Source: an uncultured bacterium
Lineage (GTDB): Bacteria > Chloroflexota > Anaerolineae > J036 > Brachytrichaceae
Reading direction: 5' to 3'
DNA: 62,113 nt
NCBI GenBank assembly: GCA_903921365.1
Contig: CAIXPS010000379.1
Location: forward strand, 1-62,113
This document shows, piece by piece, positions 7,538 to 62,113 of this stretch. Position 1 is the first letter of the stretch; each line of letters opens with the position of its first letter. The notes under the pieces were generated by a model. The model was not told where the DNA came from, did no database searches, and saw nothing but the letters and a program-made list of their open reading frames with translations. The translations under genes and the position numbers were made by a program.

Positions 7538-7543
7538 GGCGCA

Positions 7544-7572
7544 AGGATAGTTTTACTTTGCCATTGCGTCAA
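7544..7572 (-). promoter_or_regulatory. Promoter of AceE-like gene, leaderless layout
   Basis: On the minus strand TTGACG (7567-7572), a 17-bp spacer and TATCCT (7544-7549) precede the ATG at 7537 by only 6 nt. Transcription should begin at or next to the start codon. Confidence 0.65.
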
Positions 7573-7582
7573 TGGTTGAAGG

Positions 7583-7645
7583 GGAGATTAGAGATTGGAG
7601 ATTAGAGATTGGAAATTGGAGATTGGAGATTGGAGATTGGAGATT
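7583..7645. repeat. GAGATTG/GAGATTA tandem heptamer tract
   Basis: About nine imperfect 7-bp units of the form GAGATTG or GAGATTA lie between the AceE-like gene and the end of the converging-side MFS gene. The same unit recurs at 12239-12308 and 55392-55415, with a weaker version at 18849-18885. It could be translated as LEIGDWRLEIG, but no supported gene uses it here. Confidence 0.9.
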
Positions 7646-7672
7646 CGAAATGGGCAGGGTTGGCGCTAGTTG

Positions 7673-10335: not shown

Positions 10336-10360
10336 AGCTGGCTGAATGATACGCGAGAAA

Positions 10361-11383: not shown

Positions 11384-11515
11384 ATTTATCTGCAACTATT
11401 CCCGCATAAGGTCTGCATTGGTTCACAATTGCCAGTGTCTGGAATATACACCCAGGATAAAAATAGACGCGCAGTGCGGCGGGTGCTACTATTGGGCGCA
11501 CGTGAAATGGAGATT

Positions 11516-12871
11516 ATGGGAAAAACATTTGCCGAAAAAGCCCTGGCCCGCGCGTCGGGCCAGGCCAGCGTCAGCGCTGGACAGATCGTGGATGCTCAGC
11601 CGGATGCGATTCTGAGCCATGACAATACCGCCGCCATCTTTCGTTTGTTCAAACAGCTCGGTATCGAGCGCGTGAAAAACCCCGATCGGTTGCGCATCGC
11701 GCTCGATCACGCCGTGCCGGCGCCGACGACGCAACATGCGCAGAATCACGCCGAGGTGCGCAACTTCGTCGCACAGCAGGGCGTGAAAAATTTCTTTGAG
11801 GTCGGGCGCGGCATCTGCCATCAGGTGCTGAGCGAAGAGGCGATGGTGCTGCCCGGACAGTTGATCCTCGGCGCGGACAGCCACACCACGCACTACGGCT
11901 GGATGGGCGCGTTTGGCGCGGGCATCGGGCGCAGCGAGGTGGCGGCGCTATGGGCCACGGGCGAACTGTGGCTGCGCGTGCCGGAGAGCATCAAGGTGGT
12001 GCTCAATGGCGCGTTGCCCCCCGGCGTGACATCGAAGGACTTCTGTCTAAAGTTCATCGGCGACGTGGGCGCGGACGGCGGGTTGTATGCGTCGGTCGAA
12101 TTCCATGGCGACGGCATCAGCGCGATGAGCCTCGAAAGCCGCATGGTGATCCCGAACATGATGGCCGAGTTTGGCGCGAAGAACGCCTACCTGCCGCCGG
12201 ATCAGAAGGTGTATGAGTATTTGAGCGTTCCACTACAGAGGAGATTAGAGATTGGAGATTGGGGATCACAGGAAGCCCGGCAATCTCTCATCTCCAATCT
12301 CCAATCTCACTCCCTCTTCGCCGACGCCGACGCGACCTACCGCGCTACCTATACCTATGACGCGAGCACGCTGGAGCCGATGATCGCCAAGCCGCACCGC
12401 GTGGACAATGTCTCACCGCTGAGCGCGTTGAAAGGCATCCGCATCCAGCAGGCCTTCCTCGGCACCTGCACCAACGGGCGCATCGAAGATCTCGAAGCGG
12501 CGTGCGCGGTGCTGAAGGGCAAACAGATCGCCGCGGGCACGCGCATGCTCGTGATCCCGGCATCCTCCGAGATTCTCAAAGAAGCGACCCGGCGCGGGTA
12601 CATCTCCATCCTGCTCGACGCCGGCGCGGTCATCGGCGTGCCGGGGTGCGGGCCATGCATGGGCAATCACATGGGCGTGCCGGCCGTTGGCGAAGTCACC
12701 ATCAGCACGGCCAACCGCAACTTCCGCGGTCGCATGGGCACCCGCGACGCGGAGATCTACCTGGCCTCCCCCGCGGTCGTCGCCGCCAGCGCCGTCGCCG
12801 GCGTCATCGCTGACCCCCGGGAGGTGAGCGGAGGTGAAGAGGAGAAAAGGAGGGGGATAGAGGAGAGATGA
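11516..12871 (+). CDS. Aconitase / 3-isopropylmalate dehydratase large-subunit family, with in-frame repeat insertion
   Basis: The 451-residue protein carries the three cysteine-ligand regions of the 4Fe-4S hydro-lyases: [11 protein letters not shown], the [13 protein letters not shown] motif and the [11 protein letters not shown] motif. It matches the LeuC/HacA class that works with a separate small (swivel) subunit, but no small-subunit gene is adjacent. Product could be isopropylmalate, homoaconitate or citrate dehydratase. Codons from 12239 to about 12308 are a GAGATTG-type inverted repeat read in frame (LEIGDWG ... SLISNLQ), and the last about 15 codons lie in a GA-rich tract, so both a loop and the C-terminus look repeat-derived. 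Start [16 protein letters not shown] fits the family; ATG 11507 is an alternative. Confidence 0.88.
12239..12308. repeat. Inverted GAGATTG-family element inside the aconitase-family gene
   Basis: Left arm 12241-12265 has three GAGATT units; right arm 12281-12308 has the complementary CAATCTC units, so the transcript could fold into a long stem around ATCACAGGAAGCCCGG. The length keeps the reading frame open and adds about 23 codons where relatives pass directly from the YEYL segment to LFADADA. Confidence 0.85.
12822..12869 (+). repeat. GA-rich tract, left flank of four-helix-bundle gene
   Basis: A nearly pure purine stretch with GGAGGTGA and GGAGAAAAGGAG units. It encodes the tail of the preceding gene and supplies the Shine-Dalgarno of the next. 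A matching tract plus the first codons of the same gene recur on the minus strand at 14085-14165. Confidence 0.8.
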
Positions 12872-13255
12872 ATGAGTAAGATTCAGAGCCATGAGGAATT
12901 GGATGTTTACAGGATGGCTTTTGAGGCTGCTATGGTCATTTTTGAATCATCCAAGGGTTTCCCGCGAGAGGAAATCTACTCACTCACGGATCAGATTCGC
13001 CGCTCCTCCCGGTCTGTCTGCGCTAATATCACTGAAGCTTGGCGCAAAAGGCGTTATGAAGCCGCGTTTGTGAGTAAATTATCAGATGCTGAAAGTGAAG
13101 CGGCGGAGACGCAAACGTGGCTGCGTTTCACGATTGCCTGCGGCTACCTGCCAGAGGCAAAAGCCTTGGACTTGATCCAGACTTACGACTTTGTTCTGGG
13201 TAAGCTGGTGAACATGATCGCTCGCCCCGGCCCCTGGTTACTGGTGAGGGAGTAA
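12872..13255 (+). CDS. Four-helix-bundle protein (23S rRNA intervening-sequence protein family)
   Basis: A 127-residue, almost all-helical protein of the four-helix-bundle/IVS family. Visible signatures are the opening HEELDVYRMAFEAAM, FPREEIYSLTDQIRRSSRSV, CANITEAWRKRRY and a late SEAAETQTWLRFTIACGYL. Family members were first found in intervening sequences of 23S rRNA genes and are now common as stand-alone genes; molecular function is unknown. The ATG follows the previous stop directly (TGA-ATG) and has GGAGAG upstream. The gene is bracketed by GA-rich DNA on its left and CT-rich DNA on its right, giving inverted flanks. A decayed copy of its 5' end is at 14085-14120. Confidence 0.92.
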   Translation: MSKIQSHEELDVYRMAFEAAMVIFESSKGFPREEIYSLTDQIRRSSRSVCANITEAWRKRRYEAAFVSKLSDAESEAAETQTWLRFTIACGYLPEAKALDLIQTYDFVLGKLVNMIARPGPWLLVRE

Positions 13256-13257
13256 GC

Positions 13258-13335
13258 ATCGCCCCCTCACCTCCTACTCCCCTTCTCTCCTTCTCTCCTC
13301 TGCTCCTCCTCTCCCCCGCTCCCCCGCTCCCCCTA
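13258..13335 (+). repeat. CT-rich tract, right flank of four-helix-bundle gene
   Basis: A pyrimidine-only run (CTCCTTCTCTCCTCTGC and CCCCCGCTCCCCCGCTCCCC units) begins right after the four-helix-bundle stop and ends at the stop of the converging SDR. It is complementary in character to the GA tract at 12822-12869, so the gene lies between inverted arms. Confidence 0.8.
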
Positions 13336-14076
13336 AAACTCCCGCTTCCACATATGCCCGCCTTCGAGCATGATGCAGTCGCCGTTGATGAATTGCGGGC
13401 CGGTGATGAGGAACATGATGATCTCGCCGACCTGCTCGGCAGTGCCAAGGGCGTTGAGCGGGTTGGTGTGACGGATGGCTTCCCAACGCTCGTCGCTGTA
13501 GTCTGGGGGCTTAAGAATAGGCCCGGGGCAGATGGCGTTGACGCGCACCTTGGGACCCAGTATCAGCGTCTGCGCGTGTGTGAGCGCGAGCAGCCCGGCC
13601 TTCGAGATGGCATGCGCCGTGAATGTCCTGCTCGGGTAGAACGCGCCCTCGTCGGTGATGTTGATGATGTTGCCGCCCTCGCCGGCGATCATCGCCTTGC
13701 CAATCACCTGGCTGATCGCATAGGGCCCCTTGAGGTTGACGTTCATCGAGGCATCGTATTGCGCCTCGGTCGAGTCGAGGTAGGCTGCGCCGATGAAGCT
13801 TGAGGCGTTGTTGATCAGAATATCGACCTTGCCAAAATGCTCCAGCGCCTTCCGACCCACCTGCTGTGCTTCCTGCCAGTTGCCCATGTCGGCCTGCACC
13901 AGCAGTGTGCGCCGGCCAAGTGCCTCGATCTCGGCAACGGTTTGTCTAGCCGCGTCTGCGCTGCCGCCGTAATGGACCACGATGTCCGCCCCTTCCTGCG
14001 CCAATGCCAGCGCAATGGCTTTGCCGACGCGATGGGCCGACCCCGTAACTAATGCCACTTTTCCGTTTAGTTTCAT
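13333..14076 (-). CDS. Short-chain dehydrogenase/reductase-like protein with altered catalytic residues
   Basis: A 247-residue Rossmann-fold SDR closest in style to the PTR1/FolM (pteridine reductase) group, with TGSAHRVGKA at 11-20, NNAS at 89-92 and an ICPGPI segment. The classical catalytic pair is changed. The Tyr of YxxxK is His155 (HAISK, codon CAT) and the usual Ser position falls in NITDEG; Lys159 is kept. It may be inactive or use another mechanism. Start ATG 14076 was chosen because GAGGAG lies 5 nt upstream; ATG-like codons further up run into the decayed four-helix-bundle remnant. Pterin reduction is possible but not shown. Confidence 0.85.
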   Translation of the reverse strand: MKLNGKVALVTGSAHRVGKAIALALAQEGADIVVHYGGSADAARQTVAEIEALGRRTLLVQADMGNWQEAQQVGRKALEHFGKVDILINNASSFIGAAYLDSTEAQYDASMNVNLKGPYAISQVIGKAMIAGEGGNIINITDEGAFYPSRTFTAHAISKAGLLALTHAQTLILGPKVRVNAICPGPILKPPDYSDERWEAIRHTNPLNALGTAEQVGEIIMFLITGPQFINGDCIMLEGGHMWKREF

Positions 14077-14084
14077 ATTTCTCC

Positions 14085-14165
14085 TCATAAATCCAAACCA
14101 TGTCTCTGAATCCTACTCATTCACCTCTTCTCCTCCGCTCCTCTTCACCTCTTCTCCTTTTCTCC
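14085..14165 (-). repeat. Decayed copy of GA tract plus 5' end of a four-helix-bundle gene
   Basis: Read on the minus strand, GA-rich DNA leads into GTGAATGAGTAGGATTCAGA, then GACATGG. The intact gene at 12868 reads ATGAATGAGTAAGATTCAGA, then GCCATGA. About 20 of 22 bases match, and weaker similarity (TTGGATnTTTA) continues before the SDR start. Confidence 0.7.
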
Positions 14166-14203
14166 GAGGATGCCTCCGACGAGCGTGAAGTATACTCAGC
14201 ATT

Positions 14204-14713
14204 GTGATCACAAACCCCCTTGAGATTCCAGTGATTCTGCAGATACGGCGCAACCATGGTTTGGAACACGCGACCATTCACATCCTGAGTGAACGGCTGC
14301 GCCATCTGCGCGTGGTCGGGCGCTCGCAGGCCAACGGTTTCTACCTGTATGGCGACCTGAAGACCGAGGACATTGCGGCGGCCGTCGAGGAAGCGCTGAA
14401 ACGCATGAAGGCCGGCGACAGCCGGCTCGCGGTGCACCCCGGTTGCGGCACAAACATGGTCACCGCAGGGTTACTCGCGGGCAGCATCGCTTTTGTCGCG
14501 TCGCTCTTCGGTGGAAAGAAAGCGCACTGGTATGACCGGCTCGCGAATGCCGCATTTGGCGGCGTTCTGGGCGTGGCCGCAGCACAACCGATTGGGCCAT
14601 GGCTGCAAGCCAACGTCACCACCTCCGCCGACATGCACGGTATGCGCGTGCGCAAGATCGCGCGAAGCCAGACCGGGCCGGTGCTCACGCATTTCGTCGA
14701 GACGCAGGCGTAA
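14204..14713 (+). CDS. DUF6391-like small membrane protein
   Basis: A 169-residue protein with an N-terminal RRNHGLEHATIHILSER motif (about residues 15-31) of a family found in Chloroflexota and cyanobacteria and listed, as far as I recall, as DUF6391. A Gly/Ala-rich hydrophobic pair of segments follows (GLLAGSIAFVASLFGG and AAFGGVLGVAAAQPIG), so it is probably a two-TM membrane protein with a cytoplasmic helical head. The conserved H-x2-EHA pattern could bind metal, which is speculation. It lies alone between oppositely oriented genes. Function is unknown. Confidence 0.75.
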   Translation: MITNPLEIPVILQIRRNHGLEHATIHILSERLRHLRVVGRSQANGFYLYGDLKTEDIAAAVEEALKRMKAGDSRLAVHPGCGTNMVTAGLLAGSIAFVASLFGGKKAHWYDRLANAAFGGVLGVAAAQPIGPWLQANVTTSADMHGMRVRKIARSQTGPVLTHFVETQA

Positions 14714-14714
14714 G

Positions 14715-15296
14715 CTACGCTTCGAGTTTCTTCAAAAGCCGTTTCGCATCCATGTCGCCGGGGTCAGATTTAGCCGCGAGCCGGAAGGCGGCGATGGCTT
14801 TGTCGCGTTCGTCGCGATCCACGTAAATCAAGCCGATGTTGTACGCGGCGCTGGGCGCAAACGGGTCGATCTGCAGGGCGCGCTGGAAGGCGGCGATGGC
14901 TTTCAGTTGTTGTTCATCCCTTGCCAGTATCGGATTGCCGAGGTAAGCGGCGCCGAGGTTGATCCACAACTGAGCAATCGATGGCGTTTGCCTGACGGCT
15001 TCTTCCAGCACAGGCACTGCCAGCTTGTAGCGCCCAAGCAAGAGATAGGCGCTGGCCAAATTGAGCGATGCACTGGCATCGGTTGGCCGGAGTTCGCAGG
15101 CGCGCTTGAGCAGCGGCAACGCCTCTTCGGTTTTGCCCTCCTGCAACAAACGCGTGCCCTCAGTAATCTGTTCGCGGAACTGGCGCTCCTGCCTGTCCTT
15201 CAACCACGAGTTCAGCCGTTCCTGGTCGTGTTCGCTGGGGATTGGTTCGGTTCCCGCTCCATCGTTATTATTTAACTCATCACCTGTGCCGTTCAT
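14715..15296 (-). CDS. TPR-repeat protein
   Basis: A 193-residue soluble protein with an acidic/polar N-terminus and at least four tetratricopeptide-like repeats, such as GKTEEALPLLKRACELRPTD, LLLGRYKLAVPVLEEAVR, AFQRALQIDPFAPSAAYNIG and ERDKAIAAFRLAAKSDPGD. TPR proteins scaffold protein complexes; no partner can be named. The start ATG 15296 has no Shine-Dalgarno, but TATAAT ends 6 nt before it, indicating a leaderless transcript; the in-frame codon at 15320 would lie upstream of that promoter. Divergent from the AspT-like gene. Confidence 0.85.
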   Translation of the reverse strand: MNGTGDELNNNDGAGTEPIPSEHDQERLNSWLKDRQERQFREQITEGTRLLQEGKTEEALPLLKRACELRPTDASASLNLASAYLLLGRYKLAVPVLEEAVRQTPSIAQLWINLGAAYLGNPILARDEQQLKAIAAFQRALQIDPFAPSAAYNIGLIYVDRDERDKAIAAFRLAAKSDPGDMDAKRLLKKLEA

Positions 15297-15302
15297 GCGC
15301 GA

Positions 15303-15308
15303 ATTATA
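15303..15308 (-). promoter_or_regulatory. TATAAT -10 of TPR gene, leaderless layout
   Basis: A perfect minus-strand TATAAT is separated from the ATG at 15296 by TCGCGC. No Shine-Dalgarno can fit in between. Confidence 0.6.
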
Positions 15309-15330
15309 GGGGACGCGCAAGGCGCGCTCT

Positions 15331-15339
15331 TGCTATACT
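15331..15339 (+). promoter_or_regulatory. Extended -10 of AspT-like gene
   Basis: TGCTATACT is an extended -10 (TGn plus TATACT) 10 nt before the ATG at 15350. It gives at most a few bases of leader. Confidence 0.5.
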
Positions 15340-15349
15340 CACCCCTATC

Positions 15350-16993
15350 ATGATTGCTCTCTTAATTGATAATCCGTTGCTGTTGCTTTTTATCGTCACG
15401 GCCATCGGCTACCCGCTGGGCCAGATCAAAGTGCGCGGCACAAGTCTGGGCGTGGCGGCGGTGCTGTTTGTCGGCCTCGCGATCGGCTCGCTCGATCCCA
15501 ATCTGAAACTCCCCGAAATCATCTACACGCTCGGGCTGGCGTTGTTCGTATACTCTATTGGCCTGAGCAGCGGCCCCGGGTTTGTCGCATCGTTCCGGCG
15601 CGCCGGGTTGCGCGATAACCTGCTGGTGATCGGCATGGTGGCGCTGGCGGCTGTCGTGACGGTCGCAGTGGCTGTGGCGATGGGGATCAAACCGACGTTC
15701 ACGGCCGGGATGTTCACTGGCAGCCTCACCAACACACCCGCCCTCGCTGCCGTGCTCGAATACATCAAATCCGCCGCCCCGCAGGCGCTGCGCGATCAGA
15801 TGGCCTCGGAGCCCGTGGTAGGGTACTCAGTGGCATACCCAATGGGCGTCATCGGGATGCTGCTGACCATCTACGTGATGCAGAAGGTGTGGAAGATCAA
15901 CTACAAACAGGAATCACGCGAGATGAAAGAGTTCGGCGTGTCGAACGAGGCGTTGCACAACCGCACCATCCTCGTCAAAAACGCCGACGCCAGCGACCAG
16001 ACGCTCGCCGCGATGCGGCGCAACTGCAGTTGGGACGTTATCTTCGGGCGGATCAAGCGCGCCGAACAGATATCGCTCGCCAACGGCGAAACGCGCCTGC
16101 AGGTGGGCGATCTGGTGAGCTGCGTCGGCACGACCGAGGAACTGGAGAAAGTCGCCGACTGCCTGGGTGAGTTCAGCCCATTGCGCCTCGATTACGACGT
16201 CAGCGAGTTCAAGCCGCGCCGCGTGTTTGTGTCCAACCCGCGCGTGGCCGGGCGGCGCTTGCGCGACCTGAACCTGAATCAACAGTTCGGCGCCATCGTC
16301 ACGCGCATCCGCCGCGGCGACGTGGACATGCTGGCGCACGGCGATACGGTGCTCGAACTAGGCGACCGCGTGCGCGTGGTGTGCCATCGCGAGCACATGG
16401 ACGCGGTCAGCGTCTTCTTCGGCGACTCGTATCGCGCCATCAGCGAAATCGACATCCTCACGTTCAGCCTCGGGTTGACGCTCGGGTTGTTGCTGGGCAT
16501 CCTGCCCATCCCGCTGCCGGGCGGCATCACGCTCAAACTCGGTTTCGCTGGCGGCCCGCTCATCGTTGCGCTGATCCTCAGCGCCGTCGGTCGCACCGGC
16601 CCGATCGTGTGGAGTCTGCCGTATGGAGCGAACCTGTTGCTGCGACAGATTGGTTTGATCTTCTTCCTGGCGGCGGTCGGCACGCGCGCGGGCTACGCGT
16701 TCGTCAGCACGCTGTCGCAGGGCGGCGGGCTCGCCATCTTCGCGGCCGGCGCGATCGTCACCTGCGTCACAGCGCTGATCATGTTGTGGATCGGCCACAA
16801 GCTGCTCAAGATTCCGATGGGGTTGCTCGTCGGCATGCTGGCGGGACTGCAGACCCAGCCGGCAGTGCTCGGTTTCGCGCTCGAACAGACCGGCAACGAC
16901 CTGCCCAACATCGGCTATGCGGCGGTATACCCGGTGGCGATGATCACGAAGATTGTGGTGGCGCAGGTGATTATTACGCTGTTGTTGCGGTGA
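15350..16993 (+). CDS. AspT/YidE-family aspartate:alanine-exchanger-like transporter with RCK_C domains
   Basis: A 547-residue membrane protein of the AAE transporter family. It shows the typical layout: an N-terminal set of hydrophobic helices (MIALLIDNPLLLLFIVTAIG onward, including TPALAAVLEYIK), a cytoplasmic centre with two TrkA-C/RCK_C-like units (about residues 190-360, with DLVSCVGTTEELEKV and GDRVRVVCHREH), and a C-terminal set of helices. The two membrane halves are the internal duplication of the family. Characterised relatives exchange aspartate for alanine or move dicarboxylates; substrate here is unknown. Start at ATG 15350 leaves the first membrane segment intact and follows an extended -10. 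Confidence 0.88.
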   Translation: MIALLIDNPLLLLFIVTAIGYPLGQIKVRGTSLGVAAVLFVGLAIGSLDPNLKLPEIIYTLGLALFVYSIGLSSGPGFVASFRRAGLRDNLLVIGMVALAAVVTVAVAVAMGIKPTFTAGMFTGSLTNTPALAAVLEYIKSAAPQALRDQMASEPVVGYSVAYPMGVIGMLLTIYVMQKVWKINYKQESREMKEFGVSNEALHNRTILVKNADASDQTLAAMRRNCSWDVIFGRIKRAEQISLANGETRLQVGDLVSCVGTTEELEKVADCLGEFSPLRLDYDVSEFKPRRVFVSNPRVAGRRLRDLNLNQQFGAIVTRIRRGDVDMLAHGDTVLELGDRVRVVCHREHMDAVSVFFGDSYRAISEIDILTFSLGLTLGLLLGILPIPLPGGITLKLGFAGGPLIVALILSAVGRTGPIVWSLPYGANLLLRQIGLIFFLAAVGTRAGYAFVSTLSQGGGLAIFAAGAIVTCVTALIMLWIGHKLLKIPMGLLVGMLAGLQTQPAVLGFALEQTGNDLPNIGYAAVYPVAMITKIVVAQVIITLLLR

Positions 16994-51908: not shown

Positions 51909-51958
51909 AATCACGAAATCAGAAGTCGGTTTTGTGTCGATCGTAATGAGGTGTGCCA

Positions 51959-52342
51959 ATGAAAATATTACCAACACAATGTCCAATCTGTGGCGGTGAC
52001 ATCCAGGTCACTCGGTTTTACTGTCAGCAATGTGACTCGACCGTGGAAGGTCATTTCGAGATCGGCCGCTTCATGCGCCTGACATCCGAGCAATTGCAGT
52101 TCATCGAGACGTTCGTGCGTTGCGAGGGTAAGTTGAACCGCATGGAGAGTGAGATGGCTATGTCGTATCCCACCCTGCGCAGCCGTTTGCTCGAAGTCAT
52201 CCGCGCGCTGGGGTATGAACCCGGGCGCGAGGAGCCTGCGATCAGGGTTTCCGATGAGGAACGTAAGCGCGTCCTGGATGAACTGGATCGTGGTCGAATC
52301 AGCGCCGATGAGGCGATGCGCATTTTGCAGGGAGGCGAATAA
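51959..52342 (+). CDS. DUF2089 zinc-ribbon/HTH protein with SHOCT-like tail
   Basis: A 127-residue DUF2089 protein. The N-terminus has a zinc ribbon with Cys8, Cys11, Cys22 and Cys25. A helical middle (LTSEQLQFIETFVRCEGKLN, then MAMSYPTLRSRLLEVIRALG) resembles a helix-turn-helix. The C-terminal 28 residues form the SHOCT-like hairpin (EERKRVLDELDRGRISADEA). It is the likely DNA-binding regulator of the operon it opens, but this is inference. ATG 51959 was preferred over GTG 51953 for ribosome-binding-site spacing. Its stop overlaps the next ATG (TAATG). Confidence 0.9.
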   Translation: MKILPTQCPICGGDIQVTRFYCQQCDSTVEGHFEIGRFMRLTSEQLQFIETFVRCEGKLNRMESEMAMSYPTLRSRLLEVIRALGYEPGREEPAIRVSDEERKRVLDELDRGRISADEAMRILQGGE

Positions 52343-53712
52343 TGGTGCAACAGAAATCCTTAGTGACCGGTGAAAAGCCGGATGTGGTGATTGACGAGGC
52401 TAATGGCGATCTCCGCCTGATGGGATGGGAGCGCGCCGAGGTGCTGGCCAAGGTCGAAGGTGACTTTACGCTTCAGCAGAGCGATGACCTGGTAGTGCAT
52501 CTGCGCTGCAATGGCGATGCCGTGGTGCGCGTTCCTTTTGGCGCGAATCTGAAGATCGGCCAGGCGCATGGCGATGTGCGCATCAAGTCAGTGAATGGCC
52601 GCGTGCAGCTTGGCGCCGCGACCGGCGACCTGGCGTTGCGCCATGTGGGCGACGTGACGCTCGATAACCATTCGGGCGACGTGTCGATCAAGCATGTGAC
52701 AGGCGACCTGGCGGTGAATAGCGTCAGCGGCGATCTCAGCCTGCTGGATGTGCGCACAGTAAACATCACTAATGTGAGCGGCGATCTGTCCGCCCGCGCC
52801 ATACAGGGCAATACTGGGATCGGCAACGTGAGCGGCGATGTCAGCATCGAAGGCGCACAAGGCAACCTCTCCCTCGCGAACGTCGGAGGCGACCTGCGCG
52901 TAGCCGGGGTGCAGGGCAACGTGACCCTCGGCAACACCGCCGGCGAAGTGTCTTTGGGCGGGGTGCAGGGCAATGTGAACGCCGGGCAGATCGCGGGTGA
53001 TCTCAACGCGCAGGGAGTCTTCAGCATCGAGGCCGTTGTGTTGGGCGACGCCGCTATTGGTTTTACTAACCCGCTTGGCAACTCGAAGGTACAGGCGAGT
53101 GGAGATATAACGGCGCGTTTTGTGCCTGATGCAAACGCTACCGTTCACATCATCAGTGAGTCGGCGAGTATTACTCTGAACGCCCCCGGCGGCGGCCGCA
53201 CCATCGAAGAGGGCAGCTACGATCTCAAACTCGGCAGCGGCGAAGTCGATGTCACGCTTAATGCGATGGGCGATGTCAGCATCATGAGCCATGCCCCGGC
53301 GACGGAGGATGGGCGAGGCGCTTTCCCGCAATTCGATTTTGATTTCAATTTCGACTTTGAACCCGATCTCAGTGGGCTGAACGGTCTGGGCGATCGCATT
53401 GCCCAGCGCGCGCGCGAAGCTGCGGAGCGCGCCACTGCCAGCGTGCAGGCAAAGGTGCAAGCGAAAGTGGAACGCGCCACACGCAAAGCCGAAGAGCAGG
53501 CGCGCCATGCCGATCGGCGCTTCCAATGGACCCGCCGTCCGAAAGCGGATGAGGGCTGGCGCGCGGCGCCGCCCCCACCTCCACCGGCGCCGCCGCGCGA
53601 ACCGGTGACCGACGAAGAGCGCATGTTGATATTGCGCATGCTTGAACAGAAGAAGATTACCGCGGCACAGGCCGAACAACTATTGTCAGCATTATCCGGT
53701 AAAGGAGCTTAG
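52342..53712 (+). CDS. DUF4097-type beta-solenoid protein with SHOCT-like tail
   Basis: A 456-residue protein without a signal peptide, so probably cytoplasmic. Residues 77-218 are eight tandem repeats of 17-18 residues beginning with GDV/GDL (for example GDVSIKHVTGDLAVNSVS), a regular beta-solenoid of the DUF4097 type. Then come an acidic/aromatic FDFDFNFDFEPDL stretch, an Ala/Arg/Glu-rich helix or coiled coil of about 50 residues, a run of prolines, and a final SHOCT-like hairpin (DEERMLILRMLEQKKITAAQ). Firmicute YvlB and LiaX pair a DUF4097 region with such a hairpin in one chain. Function here is unknown. Confidence 0.88.
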   Translation: MVQQKSLVTGEKPDVVIDEANGDLRLMGWERAEVLAKVEGDFTLQQSDDLVVHLRCNGDAVVRVPFGANLKIGQAHGDVRIKSVNGRVQLGAATGDLALRHVGDVTLDNHSGDVSIKHVTGDLAVNSVSGDLSLLDVRTVNITNVSGDLSARAIQGNTGIGNVSGDVSIEGAQGNLSLANVGGDLRVAGVQGNVTLGNTAGEVSLGGVQGNVNAGQIAGDLNAQGVFSIEAVVLGDAAIGFTNPLGNSKVQASGDITARFVPDANATVHIISESASITLNAPGGGRTIEEGSYDLKLGSGEVDVTLNAMGDVSIMSHAPATEDGRGAFPQFDFDFNFDFEPDLSGLNGLGDRIAQRAREAAERATASVQAKVQAKVERATRKAEEQARHADRRFQWTRRPKADEGWRAAPPPPPPAPPREPVTDEERMLILRMLEQKKITAAQAEQLLSALSGKGA

Positions 53713-53714
53713 AT

Positions 53715-54704
53715 ATGCCACAGGAACCAATTGAGCGCGCGTTTCAGACGCCCAGCCCAGCCAGACTGATACTGGCTAGCATCAGCGGCACGGTCGATAT
53801 TCAGACGGGCGACGAAGGCGTGATTACGGTCACTGCTGCAAAGCAGGACAACGGCGACGTGGAGCATACTCGCATCGAGATGTCCCAGGATGAAACAGGC
53901 GCCGTGACGATCAAGACCGAATATGGCGAGAGCTTCTGGCGCTTCTTCGGTCAGCGCCCGTGTGACGTAGCCTATACCGTGCGCGCGCCGCGCAACACTG
54001 CGTTGACGCTGAAATGCGTGAGCAGCACCGCGACCGTCAATGGGCTCTCCGGCCAATTTGACATCAGCACGATATCTGGCGATCTGGCGCTGGCAGATCT
54101 AGCCGGGCCGATCAAGATCAACCTGGTGAGCGCGACGTTGAAAGCGGAGAAGCTTGCTGGCGCTGGTGAAATTACGACTGTGTCCGGCAAAGTGGCGCTG
54201 GCGGGTTGCAACTTCCCGTCATTAAAGCTGTCCACAGTGAGTGGCGCGGTCACGATCGAGACGCCGCTTGGCGAGGGGCCATATGATTTTCACACGATCT
54301 CTGGCGACACGCAACTCTCCGTGCAATCCAGCGCGGGTTGTGCGGTTGATTTCAGCACGTTGAGCGGGCGCTTTACGTCCAATCTGCCGACCACGCACAG
54401 TCAGCAGTCCGGGCGCAACTGCCATCTGCAACTGCAGGGCGGCGGCGCGGCGGTCAAGTTCGACAGTATCTCGGCGAACCTCGATATTCACAGCGCGCAG
54501 TCCCCCGTGGCGACCGAGGTCGTTATGAAGAGCCTAATGCCTGTGTCCGCGCCTCCTGCGCCCATTTCGCCATCGGCGCCTGCAGCGGGGAGTGCGCCGG
54601 ATGTGGCGATTGCGTCGGCGGCCAAAGCGCGCCAGGACATTCTGGATCGCGTGGCGCAAGGACAGCTAGCGGTTGATGAAGCGGTGAACATGTTGCGAGG
54701 GTGA
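53715..54704 (+). CDS. Second DUF4097-type beta protein with SHOCT-like tail
   Basis: A 329-residue protein, again without a signal peptide. The first 270 residues form a beta-rich DUF4097 region with recurring STISGD, TVSGKVAL, TVSGAVTIE, TISGDTQL and TLSGRF turns. A Pro/Ala/Ser linker leads to a C-terminal hairpin (ARQDILDRVAQGQLAVDEAV). It begins 2 bp after the previous stop, with AAAGGAG upstream. It is clearly paralogous to the preceding gene in layout but not a simple duplicate: its repeats are less regular and there is no coiled coil. Confidence 0.87.
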   Translation: MPQEPIERAFQTPSPARLILASISGTVDIQTGDEGVITVTAAKQDNGDVEHTRIEMSQDETGAVTIKTEYGESFWRFFGQRPCDVAYTVRAPRNTALTLKCVSSTATVNGLSGQFDISTISGDLALADLAGPIKINLVSATLKAEKLAGAGEITTVSGKVALAGCNFPSLKLSTVSGAVTIETPLGEGPYDFHTISGDTQLSVQSSAGCAVDFSTLSGRFTSNLPTTHSQQSGRNCHLQLQGGGAAVKFDSISANLDIHSAQSPVATEVVMKSLMPVSAPPAPISPSAPAAGSAPDVAIASAAKARQDILDRVAQGQLAVDEAVNMLRG

Positions 54705-54756
54705 TCCACCCAGCATTGTTCTTCCCCGCCGGCTGGCAAGGTAAAAAGGACGTGGC

Positions 54757-55380
54757 ATGATGACTGAACCATTAAACGATGAGCGGATGCGCATTCTGGA
54801 ACAGATCGAGCGCGGTGATATCAGCGCAGCCGAGGGCATGCAGCGGCTTGAACAACTGGCCGTGGAGTCGCCGATTGTCGAGCAAACGGTCATCGATTCT
54901 GTTATGGCTGCGACCGAGGCGCCTCCACCCGTTGACGCCGACATCGCGCGCTGGAAGCGCTGGTGGACGCTGCCGTTTGCGATCGGCATCGGGATTACTA
55001 CGCTGGCCGCTCTGCTGATGCTTTCTGCGATTCAGGCTTCGGGTTATGGATTCTGGTTCTTTTGTCTGTGGGCGCCGTTCATCGCCGGTGTGGTCGTGAT
55101 TGCGCTGGCATGGGGCAGCCACACATCGCGCTGGCTGCATGTGCGCGTGAACACTGGGAATACGGAGTGGCCGCACAAGATTGCGATCAGCTTCCCCATC
55201 CCGATTCGCCTGACGGCCTGGCTGCTGCGCACTTTCGTCCCGAAGGCGTCTCAGTTGCGCAACACCTCGCTGGATGAGTTGATCCTGGCGCTGAACGAGA
55301 ATACCTCGGACTCGCGCCCGCTCTATGTTGATGTTACCGACGGTGATAAGGGCGAGAGGGTGCAGGTGTTTTTGGGGTAG
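54757..55380 (+). CDS. SHOCT-like membrane protein with two TM helices (LiaX/YvlB N-domain type)
   Basis: A 207-residue protein. Residues 8-34 are the SHOCT-like hairpin (DERMRILEQIERGDISAAEG), 71-92 and 98-119 are transmembrane helices with cytoplasmic ends, and 126-207 form an alpha/beta domain (WLHVRVNT ... LDELILALNE ... YVDVTDGDKGERVQVFLG). That last domain is homologous to residues 57-132 of the next protein, which has no TM part. It could anchor the other operon products at the membrane through the shared hairpin. Family relatives are uncharacterised. AAAAAGGA precedes the ATG. Confidence 0.8.
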   Translation: MMTEPLNDERMRILEQIERGDISAAEGMQRLEQLAVESPIVEQTVIDSVMAATEAPPPVDADIARWKRWWTLPFAIGIGITTLAALLMLSAIQASGYGFWFFCLWAPFIAGVVVIALAWGSHTSRWLHVRVNTGNTEWPHKIAISFPIPIRLTAWLLRTFVPKASQLRNTSLDELILALNENTSDSRPLYVDVTDGDKGERVQVFLG

Positions 55381-55391
55381 AGATAGAAGTG

Positions 55392-55443
55392 TGGAGATTA
55401 GGGATTGGAGATTGGGGATCAGGCGCAGCGGCGTGCCTGATCC
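55392..55443 (+). repeat. GAGATTG-family repeat with hairpin, inside the operon
   Basis: GGAGATTAGGGATTGGAGAT followed by GGATCAGGC-N10-GCCTGATCC (55416-55443, 9-bp stem) lies in the 77-bp gap between genes 4 and 5. It could weaken or separate expression of the last gene. Confidence 0.75.
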
Positions 55444-55457
55444 TTTGGAGTTAAGAC

Positions 55458-55856
55458 ATGGCTACTATTGAAGAACGCATGAAGATATTGAAGATGATCG
55501 AAGACGGTAAAGTGTCCGCGGAGGACGGCGCCAAGCTGTTGGCGGCGCTGGATGACAGCCGCAAGCAGACGCGCCCCACGCCTCCGATGCCGCCGCCATC
55601 AGGCGGAACCACAGCCAATGGCCGCTGGTTGCGCATCCGGGTGACCGATGCGGCCACCGGCAAGTCCAAGGTGAATGTCAATATCCCGATGGGGCTCGTG
55701 AACGTCGGTTTGAAGATGGGCGCGAAGTTTGCGCCGGAAGTCAACGGCATGGACATTCAGCAGATCACCGAGGCGATTAACTCGGGGATGACTGGAAAGA
55801 TCATCGATGTCGTCGACGATGAAGACGGCGAGCACGTCGAGATTTTTGTGGAATAA
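55458..55856 (+). CDS. Soluble SHOCT-like/LiaX N-domain protein
   Basis: A 132-residue protein with the SHOCT-like hairpin at 5-32 (EERMKILKMIEDGKVSAEDG), a Pro-rich linker (37-50) and an alpha/beta domain (57-132: WLRIRVTDAATGKSKVNVNI, then a central helix and VDDEDGEHVEIFVE). The last domain is the soluble counterpart of the C-terminal domain of the membrane protein upstream. GGAG lies before ATG 55458. It ends the operon; the XPB gene 76 bp downstream has its own promoter. Function unknown, possibly ligand binding or docking in envelope-stress signalling. Confidence 0.85.
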   Translation: MATIEERMKILKMIEDGKVSAEDGAKLLAALDDSRKQTRPTPPMPPPSGGTTANGRWLRIRVTDAATGKSKVNVNIPMGLVNVGLKMGAKFAPEVNGMDIQQITEAINSGMTGKIIDVVDDEDGEHVEIFVE

Positions 55857-55932: not shown

Positions 55933-57801
55933 ATGCAGAGTTATAGGCCTGAAAATCCGCTGATCGTACAAAGCGACAAGACCGTGTTGCTGGAGGTTGA
56001 TAACCCCCAGTACACCGATGCCCGTGATGTTCTCGCGCGTTTTGCCGAGCTTGAAAAAAGCCCGGAATACGTCCATACCTACCGTGTCACCCCGCTGTCG
56101 CTGTGGAACGCAGCGGCAGCGGGTCTCACCGCGCAGGCAATTCTCGACGACCTGGAGCGTTTCTCCAAGTATCCGCTGCCCGATAACATCAAAATAGACA
56201 TCGCCGACTCGATCAGCCGTTACGGGCGAATTAAGATCGTGATCGACCAGGGGCGCATGCTGCTCATCTCCGACGACTACACCTTGATGGAGGAAATTTC
56301 GCGCCACAAGATGTTCGCGCCGCTGGTGAAAGCGCGGCTGGGGCCAACGACTTTCGAGATTGACCCGGCGCAACGCGGACACGTCAAGCGCGTGCTCGTG
56401 CAGATTGGCTTTCCGGCAGAAGATCTGGCCGGCTACGTGGATGGCGACGCCCTCCCGTTCGAGATGCGCGGCATCGGCGCAGTCACAGGCGACCCATTCA
56501 GCGTGCGCGCGTATCAGGACGAAGCCGCCGAAGTCTACTGGGCAGGAGGAAGCGCGGCCGGCGGCAGCGGCGTGATCGTGTTGCCGTGCGGCGCAGGCAA
56601 AACCATCGTCGGCATGGCCGCAATGCAGCGCACCCAGTGCGCCACACTCATCCTTTGCCCGAATACCATTGCCGTGCGGCAGTGGATTCGCGAGTTGCTT
56701 GACAAGACCACGTTGACCGAGGATCAGATCGGCGAATATACCGGGCTGAAAAAGGAAGTGCGCCCAGTCACCGTCACGACCTATCAGGTGCTCACCTACC
56801 GTCCGCGCAAGGCCAAGGTGTCGGGTCCCCCCGCGCCATTTATTGGCGACGCCAACGCTTTGCCGCCCCCGTCCGCGCCTGAAGACGACGATGCACCCGC
56901 CAGCAAGGTCAAGGCGCCGGTCGTCGTGGCGGAATACCCCCACATGCAGTTGTTTACCACGCTCGATTGGGGGTTGATCATCTACGACGAGGTGCATTTG
57001 CTGCCCGCGCCAGTGTTCCGCATCACAGCGGAGATTCAAGCGCGTCGCCGGCTGGGGCTCACCGCCACGCTCGTGCGCGAAGATGGCCGGGAAGGCGAGG
57101 TTTTCTCACTCGTCGGGCCGAAAAAGTACGATGTGCCGTGGAAGGATCTGGAGCGGCAGGGCTGGATTGCCACTGCCGAGTGCCACGAAGTGCGCGTCAC
57201 TCTTGATGAGGACGATCGCATGGAATACGCGGTCACCGATCAGGATACAAAGTATCGCTTTGCCGCGACCAACCGTAAGAAAGAGCAGATCATTTCGATG
57301 CTGACGCAAAAGCACCGCGAAGACTCCGTCCTGATCATCGGCCAGTTCCTCAATCAACTGGCGCGGATTGGCGAACGTGTCGGCGCGCCCGTCATCACCG
57401 GCGAAATGCCGGTGCGCCAGCGTGAGTTGCTCTATGCCCAGTTTCGCGATGGTCAGATAAATACACTTGTCCTGTCCAAGGTAGGCAACTTCTCGATCGA
57501 TCTGCCCGATGCCAATGTGTTGATTCAGGTCAGCGGCATGTTCGGCTCGCGCCAGGAAGAGGCGCAACGGCTGGGGCGCGTGTTACGACCCAAACAGAAT
57601 GGATTGCTCGCGCATTTCTATAGCATTGTCACGCGCGACACACTCGACCAGGAGTTTGCCGCCCGGCGGCAGCTCTTCCTTACAGAACAAGGCTACCACT
57701 ACGATATCTTCTACGAAGAGGAAGTGCCTGCCTTCCAGCCCGCGGTGATTGCGACCAACGCGGCTCCGGTGCGGCGCAGTCCGCACGGCTTTCTGAACTA
57801 A
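55933..57801 (+). CDS. XPB-type DNA repair helicase (SF2)
   Basis: A 622-residue bacterial XPB homologue. The N-terminal part (1-190) includes the helicase-associated region (PLSLWNAAAAGLTAQAILDD). The SF2 core has Walker A LPCGAGKT (217-224), DEVH at 352-355, GLTATL, and the arginine-finger motif QRLGRVLRP (545-553). An insert of about 50 residues rich in Pro, Ala and Asp sits before the DEVH box. XPB unwinds DNA in eukaryotic and archaeal repair and transcription; archaeal XPB pairs with the nuclease Bax1. Here the partners are two helicase-associated-domain proteins instead. ATG 55933 follows its own promoter and AAAGG. Confidence 0.93.
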   Translation: MQSYRPENPLIVQSDKTVLLEVDNPQYTDARDVLARFAELEKSPEYVHTYRVTPLSLWNAAAAGLTAQAILDDLERFSKYPLPDNIKIDIADSISRYGRIKIVIDQGRMLLISDDYTLMEEISRHKMFAPLVKARLGPTTFEIDPAQRGHVKRVLVQIGFPAEDLAGYVDGDALPFEMRGIGAVTGDPFSVRAYQDEAAEVYWAGGSAAGGSGVIVLPCGAGKTIVGMAAMQRTQCATLILCPNTIAVRQWIRELLDKTTLTEDQIGEYTGLKKEVRPVTVTTYQVLTYRPRKAKVSGPPAPFIGDANALPPPSAPEDDDAPASKVKAPVVVAEYPHMQLFTTLDWGLIIYDEVHLLPAPVFRITAEIQARRRLGLTATLVREDGREGEVFSLVGPKKYDVPWKDLERQGWIATAECHEVRVTLDEDDRMEYAVTDQDTKYRFAATNRKKEQIISMLTQKHREDSVLIIGQFLNQLARIGERVGAPVITGEMPVRQRELLYAQFRDGQINTLVLSKVGNFSIDLPDANVLIQVSGMFGSRQEEAQRLGRVLRPKQNGLLAHFYSIVTRDTLDQEFAARRQLFLTEQGYHYDIFYEEEVPAFQPAVIATNAAPVRRSPHGFLN

Positions 57802-57807
57802 AAGCAC

Positions 57808-60528
57808 ATGGCACGTAAATCACTGGAGGATCTTCTCAACGCCTTTGGATCATTCGATCCGCGCCTCGCTGAGGAACTAGAGAAGGAGATGGCGAGTCTG
57901 ATAAAAAGCAAGCTGCCTGGCGATATCGACAAGCAACGCCTGGTTGAGATCATTGAGGATTATAGCGGGTGCATCTATTTCATGGATGAGATCGCCGTCC
58001 AAACGCTTTGCAAAGCAAAAACGGTGGAGAAAAGCCGGGCGATGCTCGCCAGCGGGAAGCTGATAGAGCGATCGTTCAATGGTGATGAGATCACAGGCGT
58101 TGTCACCGATCTCAACCACATCTATAACCCATCCGTCAGCTTTGATTTCACTGATATGGCCTGCGATTGCAGCGAGCCCTCCACGAGGCTGTGCTCGCAT
58201 ATTACGATGTTGTTGCTGGTATGGGTGCAAGACAAGTTCGAGTTCCTCCCCGTGAACCCATCTCCGGATCAACAGCAAGCCATGATGGATTCCGAGTTCG
58301 GAGCTTTCATGATAGACGTGACGGGTGAACATGACTACACCCGCGCGCTCGCAAAGTTAAAGATGCCCCTTACACCTTCTCAGTCCATTCCACACTTGCC
58401 AACGGCGCTGTTGCCAGCGCCACAATCACCGACGGTAGCAGCGCCAGCGATGTTATCGCCAGCAGCGCAATTGCTTGAGGGCACAAAGATCAGTTCCGGC
58501 AAGGTAAACTGGCCGACTGCAGCCGTGAGATACGCGGCAGCGCCGCCGCTCAAGCAGACCGTCGAAGCCGAGTTCAACGCCACGCAGCTGCGAGAACTTG
58601 CCAAGAGTTACGGCATCAAGCTGAAAGGCACATCTAAGTCTGCCTTTGTCGACCAGGTGGTCGCAGAGATGATGTCCCGCGTGGAGCGCATGCGTCAAAC
58701 ACCGGACCTGTTGCTGGAGGGATTGACCGACGATCAGGCCAGCCTGGTGCGACGGATGATGACCGCGCGCGACTATTCCATGCCTTTTCCGCGCAATCTA
58801 GTCAATAACCTGTGGTCGCAGTTGACCAATCGCGACCCCGATAAACACGCAAACGATGCGCTTGATGCGCTGCGACGAAAAGCCATTCTTTTCCCCACCC
58901 GCAACCATGTTGGTTATCGCGACGTCTACTATCAGTGGTTGCCTCTGGATCCGAGCGGCGGCAACTGTCCGTTGATGCAGTGGCCGGCCCGACAACTTCT
59001 CGCCAAGAACAAACCGGGGCGATCCAGCCAGCAGTCCGAATCAGAAAATAAACCCAACTTCCTGGATGCTTTCGAGTTGTTTATCGGCGCGTTGATGTCG
59101 AGCGGAACAGAAGTGCGCGCGTCGTTGCCCCAACATGCAAAAACAGACAGCGTGCTGTGGCTGCAGCACTGGGAACACCACATGGATGAGGTCGAGCGCG
59201 TGATCAATTCCCGCCCGGGCTGGGTGCCAAACCCATCGAGCGGGATCAGCATCCCCTTGCTCTCGCCCCTGGCGCCTCAGGCACTCGTCGTGCTTCAGGG
59301 GCAAACCGGGTTGAGCAGCGCACAATGCGAATTCCTGTTTGGCATCGCGGCGGCGTTACAACTGGTTGAAGCCCCAGACACGGCGCCCATCAAGGGGCGT
59401 GGCAAACTCACTAATACGCCATGGAAAATAGGCGCGCGCGTCAGCACCATCGAAGAATGGTTTGCGCTTGCCGACGAGGTCAAGTTGATACTCGCCTGGG
59501 ACGCATGGCGTCAACTATTCCTGTTCGGATTCGAGGCGACACGCGCGGCCAATTTCAACCGCAAACCCACCGACGGCCAGCATTTTAATGTGATGCGGTC
59601 GATTGGCGCGCATGAGTTCCTCCCGACCGATCTCGCCGCCGAATGGGCATCCCTGCGCCGCTATGTCACGCGTGTGCTGAGCGGGTTGCCGAAAAATGAG
59701 TGGATCAGCTGGCCTGAATTGCGCAAACAGATGTTTGAGTTTTACCCCGACTGCCAGTGGACTATATTTGGCCAGGAGCAGTGGTGGTTCAATGCGCCTG
59801 GAAAGCCCACCCGGCTGGAAATCAATCGCTACGACAACTGGCAATATACTGTCGGCGCTGTCATTGAGAATATCATCGCCGAACCGTTGCGCTGGTTCGG
59901 CGTCGTGGAAGTGGATGCAGGAAGCAACGGGCTGGAGGCTTTCCGTGTGACCGAGTTGCTTGCCTGGCTGACCGAAGCGCAGGTTGTCTCTGCCATTAGT
60001 TCGACCGAGGCAGGCGCTCCGGCGAACCTGGCGCGGCTACCGGTCAGCACACAGCCGCGCCCGCGCCAGATCGAGCCGGTGCGCTGGTTAAGCGACAGCC
60101 GTTGGCATCTGCCGCCCGCGCCAGACCGCGCAGGGTTTATCACTTTCGCGCGGTTGATTGCCGATGCGACCGATGCGCCGTTCACCTATGTGTTGACGCC
60201 GGCAAGCATCGAACGGGCTATCGCTGCCGGCATCACACTGGACGAGGTGGGGCGGCAGTTTGAGCAGATCGGCGCGCCCATGCCCGCAGCAGCGCGAGAG
60301 TTGTACACATCCATCGCTGAACGGTTCGGGCGGGTGCGTTTGTACGAATCACTCACCCTTTTGCAACTGGCCGACGATTATGCGTTGCGCGAATTGCTGT
60401 CTTCGACCTCGCTGGGGCAGCATGTGATCTACCAGATATCACCCCGCGCGGTTGTGGTGAAGGCCGAAGCTGTGGACAGGCTGGTCAATGAGTTGATCGC
60501 CAAAGGATACACTCCGGGGGTGAAATGA
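57808..60528 (+). CDS. Helicase-associated protein with SWIM zinc finger and SAP domain
   Basis: A 906-residue protein. A SWIM zinc finger (Cys119-x-Cys121-x7-Cys129-x-His131) follows a helical start, and a SAP-like DNA-binding helix pair (FNATQLRELAKSYGIKLKG, about 255-290) comes next. A long middle region with winged-helix-like segments leads to a C-terminal part (from about residue 790) that resembles the XPB/Ssl2 helicase-associated domain (SIERAIAAGITLDEVGRQFE and DYALRELLSSTSLG). No helicase motor or nuclease motif is seen, so it is a DNA-binding or loading partner. It starts 6 bp after the XPB stop. Confidence 0.8.
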   Translation: MARKSLEDLLNAFGSFDPRLAEELEKEMASLIKSKLPGDIDKQRLVEIIEDYSGCIYFMDEIAVQTLCKAKTVEKSRAMLASGKLIERSFNGDEITGVVTDLNHIYNPSVSFDFTDMACDCSEPSTRLCSHITMLLLVWVQDKFEFLPVNPSPDQQQAMMDSEFGAFMIDVTGEHDYTRALAKLKMPLTPSQSIPHLPTALLPAPQSPTVAAPAMLSPAAQLLEGTKISSGKVNWPTAAVRYAAAPPLKQTVEAEFNATQLRELAKSYGIKLKGTSKSAFVDQVVAEMMSRVERMRQTPDLLLEGLTDDQASLVRRMMTARDYSMPFPRNLVNNLWSQLTNRDPDKHANDALDALRRKAILFPTRNHVGYRDVYYQWLPLDPSGGNCPLMQWPARQLLAKNKPGRSSQQSESENKPNFLDAFELFIGALMSSGTEVRASLPQHAKTDSVLWLQHWEHHMDEVERVINSRPGWVPNPSSGISIPLLSPLAPQALVVLQGQTGLSSAQCEFLFGIAAALQLVEAPDTAPIKGRGKLTNTPWKIGARVSTIEEWFALADEVKLILAWDAWRQLFLFGFEATRAANFNRKPTDGQHFNVMRSIGAHEFLPTDLAAEWASLRRYVTRVLSGLPKNEWISWPELRKQMFEFYPDCQWTIFGQEQWWFNAPGKPTRLEINRYDNWQYTVGAVIENIIAEPLRWFGVVEVDAGSNGLEAFRVTELLAWLTEAQVVSAISSTEAGAPANLARLPVSTQPRPRQIEPVRWLSDSRWHLPPAPDRAGFITFARLIADATDAPFTYVLTPASIERAIAAGITLDEVGRQFEQIGAPMPAAARELYTSIAERFGRVRLYESLTLLQLADDYALRELLSSTSLGQHVIYQISPRAVVVKAEAVDRLVNELIAKGYTPGVK

Positions 60529-62113
60529 ACTGGAACGATATCCTCAAGCCATACTCGCCCAAGGTGTTATCGTATATGTGCGGGGCATTCGGGGTGAATG
60601 AGTACATTGGGAAAGTCACCCCGACAAACCGATTGCGCGTGGTTGAACTGCTACGGAAGCATCTGGGCAAACCCAATACGGTGCATTCAGCGCTCGATAT
60701 GATGGGTCCGGTGGAGATATTCATCATCAAGACGCTGCTGTCGCACGGCGGTCATGCGGATACTGAGACGGTGCGCAGGACAGTGGAACAGGACATGCTT
60801 GTGAAACAACACGTGCCAGGGGCGGCGCCAACGCCGGTATACCAGGGCGTGCCGGGTTTCGAGGATGCGGTTCTTCGCGCTACAAGTTATGGGCTCGTTT
60901 TCACGCGCGACAACCACGAAATCGATATCGCCCCTGGCAAGTTTATGTTCATCCCCGACCCCGTGTTGAGCAGTATCAACGCGGATGCTGCATGGAAGAA
61001 AGCACTGGATGGCGCGGTCAGTCGCGACACTTCTCCATCTCTAGCGCCGGCCCCAGATGGCGTCTCCGTGGTTTCCGCCGCGGACTTTCAGCGCGACCTC
61101 AGCCGCTATCTGCGCCACGTGCGCAAACAGAAGGAAGTCCCCCTCACCGCGGTGGGCTGGATTTACAAGACCAACTTCAAAACGTTCCTGGCTGCGTTGA
61201 ACGCGCCGGCGGATGCCCCGAATGATGAAGCGTCCAACGGGCGGCTCTGGTTCATGCGGCGTCTGTTGACCAAGATGGGCGAACTTTATAATAACGAGAA
61301 CGCGATCACGCCTAATCCAGCGGCAGAATTGCTGAAGGTTCCGATGGCGCAGCGCATCAAACGCGTCTTCAGTGCGTGGAGCGAGTCCGGCGCCTGGAAC
61401 GAGATGAACCGCATTCGCACCGATCACCAGGGCTATGACTACAGGCGAGACGCGCCGCCCGAATTGGTAAAGGCGCGCGCAGCCGTCTTGCGTCAGATCA
61501 CCCGTCTGGCAACGCCCGTAGGATCGCCCGCGCGCAGTGGACCAGCCAGCGCACCCGCCGACATCAGCGAGCGCTGGATCGGCACAAACCAGTTAATCGA
61601 TCAGATGCGCCGGAGCGATTACCAGTTTCTCTTCTCGCGCAAGCACAACTATCGCGATCTGGCAGGCAGCACTAATTATTTCAACTCGCCGTACTACAGC
61701 ATGAACAACGCGTTCAACATGTCCTTCCCGAATGTGAAGGACGAAAAGAGCGGCTGGGAAGATGTCGAACGGCAGGTCATTATCAGCATGCTGACCGGGC
61801 CGCTGTACTGGATGGGTCTCCTCAGCCTGGGATATGCCAAAAGCCAGACGCTGGGTGAAGGCGTCGAACCCAGCGCGTTCCGCCTGACCCAGGCGGGCGC
61901 GTGGCTGCTCGGCCTGGCAAAGCAGCCAGAGTTTATCGAAACGGGCGGGCGCGTCCTGGTGCAGCCTAATTTCACCATCATCGCGATGGAGCCAATCAGC
62001 GACGCGGTGTTGATCGCGATAGATGAATTCGCCGAATCACAGGGCGGCGATCGCGCCATCACCTACCACCTCACGCGCCAATCGGTCTATCAGGCGCAAC
62101 GCCAGGGGTGGAC
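60525..62113 (+). CDS. Helicase-associated-domain protein, 3' end outside window
   Basis: The frame is open for 529 codons from ATG 60525, which overlaps the previous stop as ATGA, to the window edge. It starts MNWNDILKPYSPKVLSYMCG and includes helical segments such as TNRLRVVELLRKHLGKPNTV and VPLTAVGWIYKTNFKTFLAA. Near the edge it has VLVQPNFTIIAMEPISDAVL and ITYHLTRQSVYQAQRQG, typical of the XPB/Ssl2 helicase-associated C-terminal region. So both partner genes share that domain class. Its end and any enzymatic domain lie beyond the window. Confidence 0.75.
   Translation, partial: MNWNDILKPYSPKVLSYMCGAFGVNEYIGKVTPTNRLRVVELLRKHLGKPNTVHSALDMMGPVEIFIIKTLLSHGGHADTETVRRTVEQDMLVKQHVPGAAPTPVYQGVPGFEDAVLRATSYGLVFTRDNHEIDIAPGKFMFIPDPVLSSINADAAWKKALDGAVSRDTSPSLAPAPDGVSVVSAADFQRDLSRYLRHVRKQKEVPLTAVGWIYKTNFKTFLAALNAPADAPNDEASNGRLWFMRRLLTKMGELYNNENAITPNPAAELLKVPMAQRIKRVFSAWSESGAWNEMNRIRTDHQGYDYRRDAPPELVKARAAVLRQITRLATPVGSPARSGPASAPADISERWIGTNQLIDQMRRSDYQFLFSRKHNYRDLAGSTNYFNSPYYSMNNAFNMSFPNVKDEKSGWEDVERQVIISMLTGPLYWMGLLSLGYAKSQTLGEGVEPSAFRLTQAGAWLLGLAKQPEFIETGGRVLVQPNFTIIAMEPISDAVLIAIDEFAESQGGDRAITYHLTRQSVYQAQRQGW

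Follow-up and report, generated by a model that had tools for sequence, protein, structure and literature searches.

The DNA analysed here (the window) is the entire contig C379 with a length of 62,113 bp, which belongs to a 6.9-Mb genome; the named genomes nearest to it are MAGs that bear the labels Anaerolineae, Thermoflexales or Chloroflexi. At the right end of the window three genes follow each other on the plus strand and code for an XPB helicase, a helicase-associated protein with a SWIM signature (P2), and a third protein (P3) which runs into the contig end (Table 1). The gap between XPB and P2 is 6 bp and P2 and P3 overlap by 4 bp; the coordinates therefore confirm the adjacency of XPB, a SWIM/SAP protein, and a third protein, as stated in an earlier sequence-only reading of the locus. 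Upstream of XPB (51953-55856) there is a series of plus strand genes with a common short terminal motif, for example ERMKIL..IEDGKVSAEDGAKLL, and two of these genes contain adhesin-like repeats; both features were recognized by eye only.

Table 1. Features of the XPB operon in the window (positions in bp)
Feature	Position	Strand	Basis
XPB helicase, 622 aa, motifs intact	55933..57801	+	NCBIfam NF045503 'DNA repair helicase XPB', 833 bits, cut-off 610
XPB N-terminal domain (Helicase_C_3)	55960..56337	+	PF13625, E 6e-38
P2, helicase-associated protein, 906 aa, p52-like predicted fold	57808..60528	+	PF13625; AlphaFold; PDB fold matches
SWIM signature CxCx7CxH in P2	58162..58200	+	CDCSEPSTRLCSH at residues 119-131
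SAP-like stretch in P2, residues 256-284	58573..58659	+	by eye
Clutch-like (Helicase_C_3) domain of P2, C-terminal	60115..60525	+	PF13625 at residues 789-871
P3, first 529 of 796 aa in window, rest on contig C453 to base 943	60525..62113	+	exact 141-bp overlap
First clutch-like domain of P3, start only, cut by contig end	61953..62113	+	PF13625

The helicase motifs GAGKT, DEVH, TATL, and QRLGRVLR as well as the RED motif are all intact in XPB, and by these motifs together with its score against the curated model the protein qualifies as a member of the XPB/ERCC3/Rad25 family. Its N-terminal domain corresponds to the part of XPB that binds p52 in TFIIH. A reading of the operon as a defence system was discarded: P2 and P3 have no PADLOC match, and the PADLOC matches of XPB point to another helicase, PbeA. 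According to a review from 2026 the role of bacterial XPB is elusive (PMC13024598).

P2 carries at its C-terminus a Helicase_C_3 domain, that is, the domain type found at the N-terminus of XPB. The SWIM signature is kept in 15 of 37 P2 orthologues and the Pfam SWIM model matches nine of the 37. The P2 orthologues of sister genera lack the SWIM part, and as distant families are among the 15 carriers, comparison of the orthologues suggests that it has probably been lost in the sister genera. SAP or Rho_N models match only few of the 37 orthologues. In one genome (G019, L059 6008-9679) a single reading frame of 1223 aa covers XPB together with the first portion of P2. As P2 is subsequently interrupted by a frame change, this might reflect an error of the assembly instead of a natural fusion, and we did not use it as proof of an interaction.

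P3 could be completed because the start of contig C453 is identical to the final 141 bp of the window without any mismatch, which we take as an overlap in the assembly graph. The full protein has 796 aa and two Helicase_C_3 domains, the first of which contains the motif GGRxxVQPNF, and the next gene downstream lies on the opposite strand. Thus, both partners carry the XPB-associated domain, as the sequence-only reading had recognized, and that reading was also right in that no motor or nuclease domain is found in the partners, now including the complete P3. In particular, neither Pfam nor fold searches of the models detected a nuclease in P2 or in the complete P3, which rules out a nuclease on the portion of P3 beyond position 62113, where it had been proposed to look for one. 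A helicase–nuclease complex with a nuclease concealed in P2 or P3 would resemble archaeal XPB, which works together with Bax1 (PMC7293015). These searches speak against such a complex, as does the lack of a gene of the Bax1 family (PF05626) in the genome of the window, likewise anticipated in the earlier reading, and its presence in only one of the 40 genomes searched. We regard this explanation as highly improbable. The sole Bax1 carrier among the 40 genomes (G034, L067; Bax1 at C178:4465-5652) also has the XPB operon and an extra P3-like gene.

A profile search with P3 yielded 42 loci from named genomes, 41 of which belong to the Chloroflexota by title or relationship. XPB, P2, and P3 are found in the same order and on one strand in 35 of these 41 loci, mostly with gaps of few bases or short overlaps; the three-gene arrangement is therefore not due to chance. 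Among the remaining six loci, one is cut by the contig end and five are from Ktedonobacteria, in which P2 and P3 stay together with an overlap of 47–65 bases and XPB is located elsewhere in the genome. In two of the Ktedonobacter loci (L113 and L122, about 6700-16800) the overlapping P2 and P3 genes without XPB beside them are followed by a gene for a RecO-like protein (identified by eye). An extra P3-like gene after XPB is present in L111 and in L067, the latter from a separate search.

The occurrence of both proteins was compared across 251 sampled Chloroflexota genomes. A P3-like protein is encoded in all 39 genomes with a convincing XPB and in 38 of the 212 genomes without XPB (Fisher p about 1e-24, uncorrected for relatedness); with a strict P3 threshold the numbers are 34 of 39 versus 2 of 212. 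P3 relatives are thus also present in some Chloroflexota genomes devoid of XPB. A scattering of the partners in other genomes, which would have refuted the idea of a bacterial XPB complex, did not occur, and with the strongly conserved order and co-occurrence this idea is well supported; the physical interaction and any part in repair or transcription are inferences.

XPB is also found beside or close to a P3-family protein outside the Chloroflexota, namely in Deinococcus, Paenibacillus, Arthrobacter, Actinomyces (divergent), and Gloeocapsopsis. In Nonomuraea the P3-family protein is encoded a few kilobases from XPB, and in a MAG of the Victivallaceae XPB is flanked by two such proteins. With these neighbourhoods, which extend over five phyla beyond Chloroflexota, the pairing of XPB with the P3 family recurs across bacteria, and two partners in one operon are the form seen in Chloroflexota. 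Presumably the XPB of Mycobacterium tuberculosis (Rv0861c) also neighbours such a protein (Rv0862c); none of the papers found to mention the latter names it in its title or abstract. On two Deinococcus plasmids (L146 9759-10058, L151 9756-10085) and on an Actinomyces plasmid (L145 7208-7507) small genes coding for about 99–109 aa without a Pfam family are situated between XPB and its partner.

It could be argued that P2 and P3 are merely neighbours of XPB and function as DNA-binding regulators or in defence. The SWIM and SAP-like parts would fit to such a function and the P2 model weakly matches MarR-type folds. Moreover, the genome of the window codes for four more Helicase_C_3 paralogues away from XPB (contigs C8, C192, C520, and C253; L002, L004, L006, and L008), and the paralogue on C253 has a WYL domain, as does the P3-family protein near XPB in Nonomuraea (L144). 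Mere neighbours are, however, difficult to reconcile with a gene order that is conserved over many families and has short or overlapping junctions, with the complete co-occurrence with XPB, and with the recurrence beside XPB in other phyla, and PADLOC does not match P2 or P3. We consider this possibility very unlikely.

What had been missed in the sequence-only reading is the identity of the partners, which points to a specific subunit of TFIIH, p52/Tfb2. When a profile of the P3 family was searched against all PDB sequences, the only credible matches were TFIIH subunits, XPB with 8e-6 and p52/Tfb2 with 0.005. The two domains of P3 behave differently. For domain 1 p52/Tfb2 (human, yeast, and entry 6trs) is the best match with 6e-5 to 3e-4 and XPB is behind at 4e-3, whereas domain 2 matches XPB better (7e-7) than p52 (1e-3). 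On the basis of these profiles, domain 1 of P3 resembles the p52 clutch more than it resembles the N-terminal domain of XPB. This does not apply to domain 2, and the clutch-like domain of P2 shows no such preference for p52 at the sequence level either. As a control, the N-terminal domains of bacterial XPB were made into a profile, which found eukaryotic XPB with 3e-18 and never matched p52; this profile was built nearly wholly from the same operons and is narrower, which may reduce its reach.

The Pfam Tfb2 model matches 32 of 40 P3 proteins, most of them below the cut-off and centred on the clutch-like domain. One P3 relative exceeds the curated cut-off (38.4 versus 34.5 bits) over 110 residues that begin upstream of its Helicase_C_3 match. 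The P3 of the window alone stays below the cut-off and its closest relative scores 15.1. A six-frame search of 40 genomes with the Tfb2 model returned a P3 gene as the best match and below it mostly Helicase_C_3 proteins.

Predicted structures extend the likeness over the whole chains. AlphaFold2 gave confident models for P2 (mean pLDDT 84.3) and for a P3 orthologue from a relative of the same genus (mean pLDDT 87.7), which is 67% identical to the P3 of the window across the part in the window. When the models were compared with the PDB by Foldseek, p52/Tfb2 chains took the first 18 places for P3 (E from 1e-7) and the first 12 for P2 (E from 2e-7), aligned over about 400–690 columns; XPB chains rank next and unrelated structures are found only above about 0.05 (P3) and 0.002 (P2). 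The chains 8ebt_D, 7o4i_2, and 6trs are named p52/Tfb2 in the PDB sequence search and the other chains were assumed to be equivalent. Both models thus meet the chain-wide organization of p52, winged helices followed by the clutch, and are p52-like in their predicted folds without any catalytic domain being found. The TM-scores are low (0.13–0.19 by query length), which we attribute to the differing poses of multi-domain proteins, and no residue-level superposition stands behind the fold matches. Taken together, it is very probable that P2 and P3 resemble p52/Tfb2.

In a tree of the clutch-like domains (61 rows, 114 columns) eukaryotic p52 is joined with domain 1 of P3 (support 90/82), eukaryotic with bacterial XPB (98/91), and the P2 domain with domain 2 of P3 (99/99). 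The alternative topology with p52 and XPB together fits less well, but the AU test does not reject it (p 0.099). Hence, the data favour, without proving it, that the lines of p52 and XPB split before the bacterial and eukaryotic forms did.

The same data leave room for the explanation that the partners are not homologues of p52 as wholes, and that bacteria duplicated the N-terminal domain of XPB and combined it with winged-helix modules, with eukaryotes undergoing a similar event on their own; XPB would still be bound via that domain. The grouping of p52 with XPB that cannot be rejected, the mostly subthreshold Tfb2 matches centred on the clutch-like domain, and the closer resemblance of P3 domain 2 to XPB are in line with such a history. 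It does not readily account for the preference of P3 domain 1 for p52 over XPB, while bacterial XPB itself does not find p52, nor for the Tfb2 match of one relative that begins upstream of the clutch-like domain, nor for the chain-wide fold matches of both partners. An independent duplication is in our opinion unlikely, and we prefer p52-like partners.

In TFIIH the clutch of p52 and the XPB N-terminal domain have the same fold and form a pseudo-symmetric pair (PMC6422496), and the ATPase of XPB is activated by p52 with p8 (PMC7708078). We suggest that the operon probably encodes a bacterial XPB–p52 module, which would correspond in a simple form to the XPB end of TFIIH. That XPB and its partners form a physical complex is quite likely, and is inferred without interaction data. 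By analogy with p52, domain 1 of P3 would pair with the XPB N-terminal domain, and through this proposed pairing XPB would be anchored and its ATPase raised, for which no ATPase data exist. The clutch-like domain of P2 and domain 2 of P3, which are mutually the closest relatives, could associate as a second pair and thereby connect P2 with the complex. The complex could be held on the DNA by the SWIM, SAP-like, and winged-helix-like parts, so that XPB by ATP-driven translocation would open the DNA at lesions or stalled transcription complexes, which might then be processed by UvrABC or another nuclease. The module would work beside ordinary bacterial excision repair, since uvrC is found in the genome of the window, Bax1 is missing from it, and no homologues of p8 and p44 over the cut-off were found in 40 genomes. 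The best match of the p8/Tfb5 profile in these genomes lies inside an XPB (L105, G025:C201:3470-3610), just after the N-terminal domain, with an E-value of 0.003 below the cut-off; it may be due to chance or reflect a p8-like part built into bacterial XPB. A role of the module in DNA repair is the least certain step, inferred without phenotype data, and we regard the chances as even.

Several points count against the module: data on interaction, ATPase activity, and phenotype are missing, the P3 of the window stays below the Tfb2 cut-off, the TM-scores are low and the tree support is not decisive, P2 and P3 are away from XPB in Ktedonobacteria, P3 relatives occur in genomes without XPB, and no homologue of p8 or p44 was found over the cut-off in 40 genomes. 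More tentatively still, and with slightly less than even confidence, the XPB–p52 pair could be older than TFIIH. Bacteria would then have true p52 homologues that use the same clutch to bind XPB, and a small ATPase module of this kind would be the ancestor of the XPB end of TFIIH; in Chloroflexota the module would be doubled to two clutch pairs (XPB with P3 domain 1 and P2 with P3 domain 2).

Previously, p52 had been reported to be missing from bacteria, and no report of a bacterial p52 appears in the titles and abstracts of the literature searched, with most subscription journals and all preprints outside the scope. Yet in some Chloroflexota the two unannotated proteins beside XPB are p52-like. 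With such a partner, the anchoring and activation of bacterial XPB can be framed in a concrete and testable way. A p52-like partner also provides a small model system for the XPB half of TFIIH, in which mutations lead to xeroderma pigmentosum and related diseases, and it is relevant to the origin of TFIIH.

When compared with known systems, the operon shares with the archaeal XPB–Bax1 helicase–nuclease an XPB with a partner, but without Bax1 in the genome of the window and without a nuclease in the partners it does not qualify as such a system. Nor does it qualify as TFIIH, as no further TFIIH subunit was found, with no match to p8 or p44 over the cut-off in 40 genomes. The 'helicase-associated domain-containing' proteins of Deinococcus, Paenibacillus, Arthrobacter, and Actinomyces, for which the literature searched describes no function, are alike in being P3-family proteins adjoining XPB; these genera usually have one partner as compared to two in Chloroflexota. 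The subunit p52/Tfb2 (GTF2H4), which anchors XPB in TFIIH, is similar to P2 and P3 in its chain-wide fold, as far as predicted, in the clutch-like domain, and in the relation to XPB. The Chloroflexota operon differs from it by having two partners, P3 with a second clutch-like domain and P2 with SWIM and SAP-like parts.
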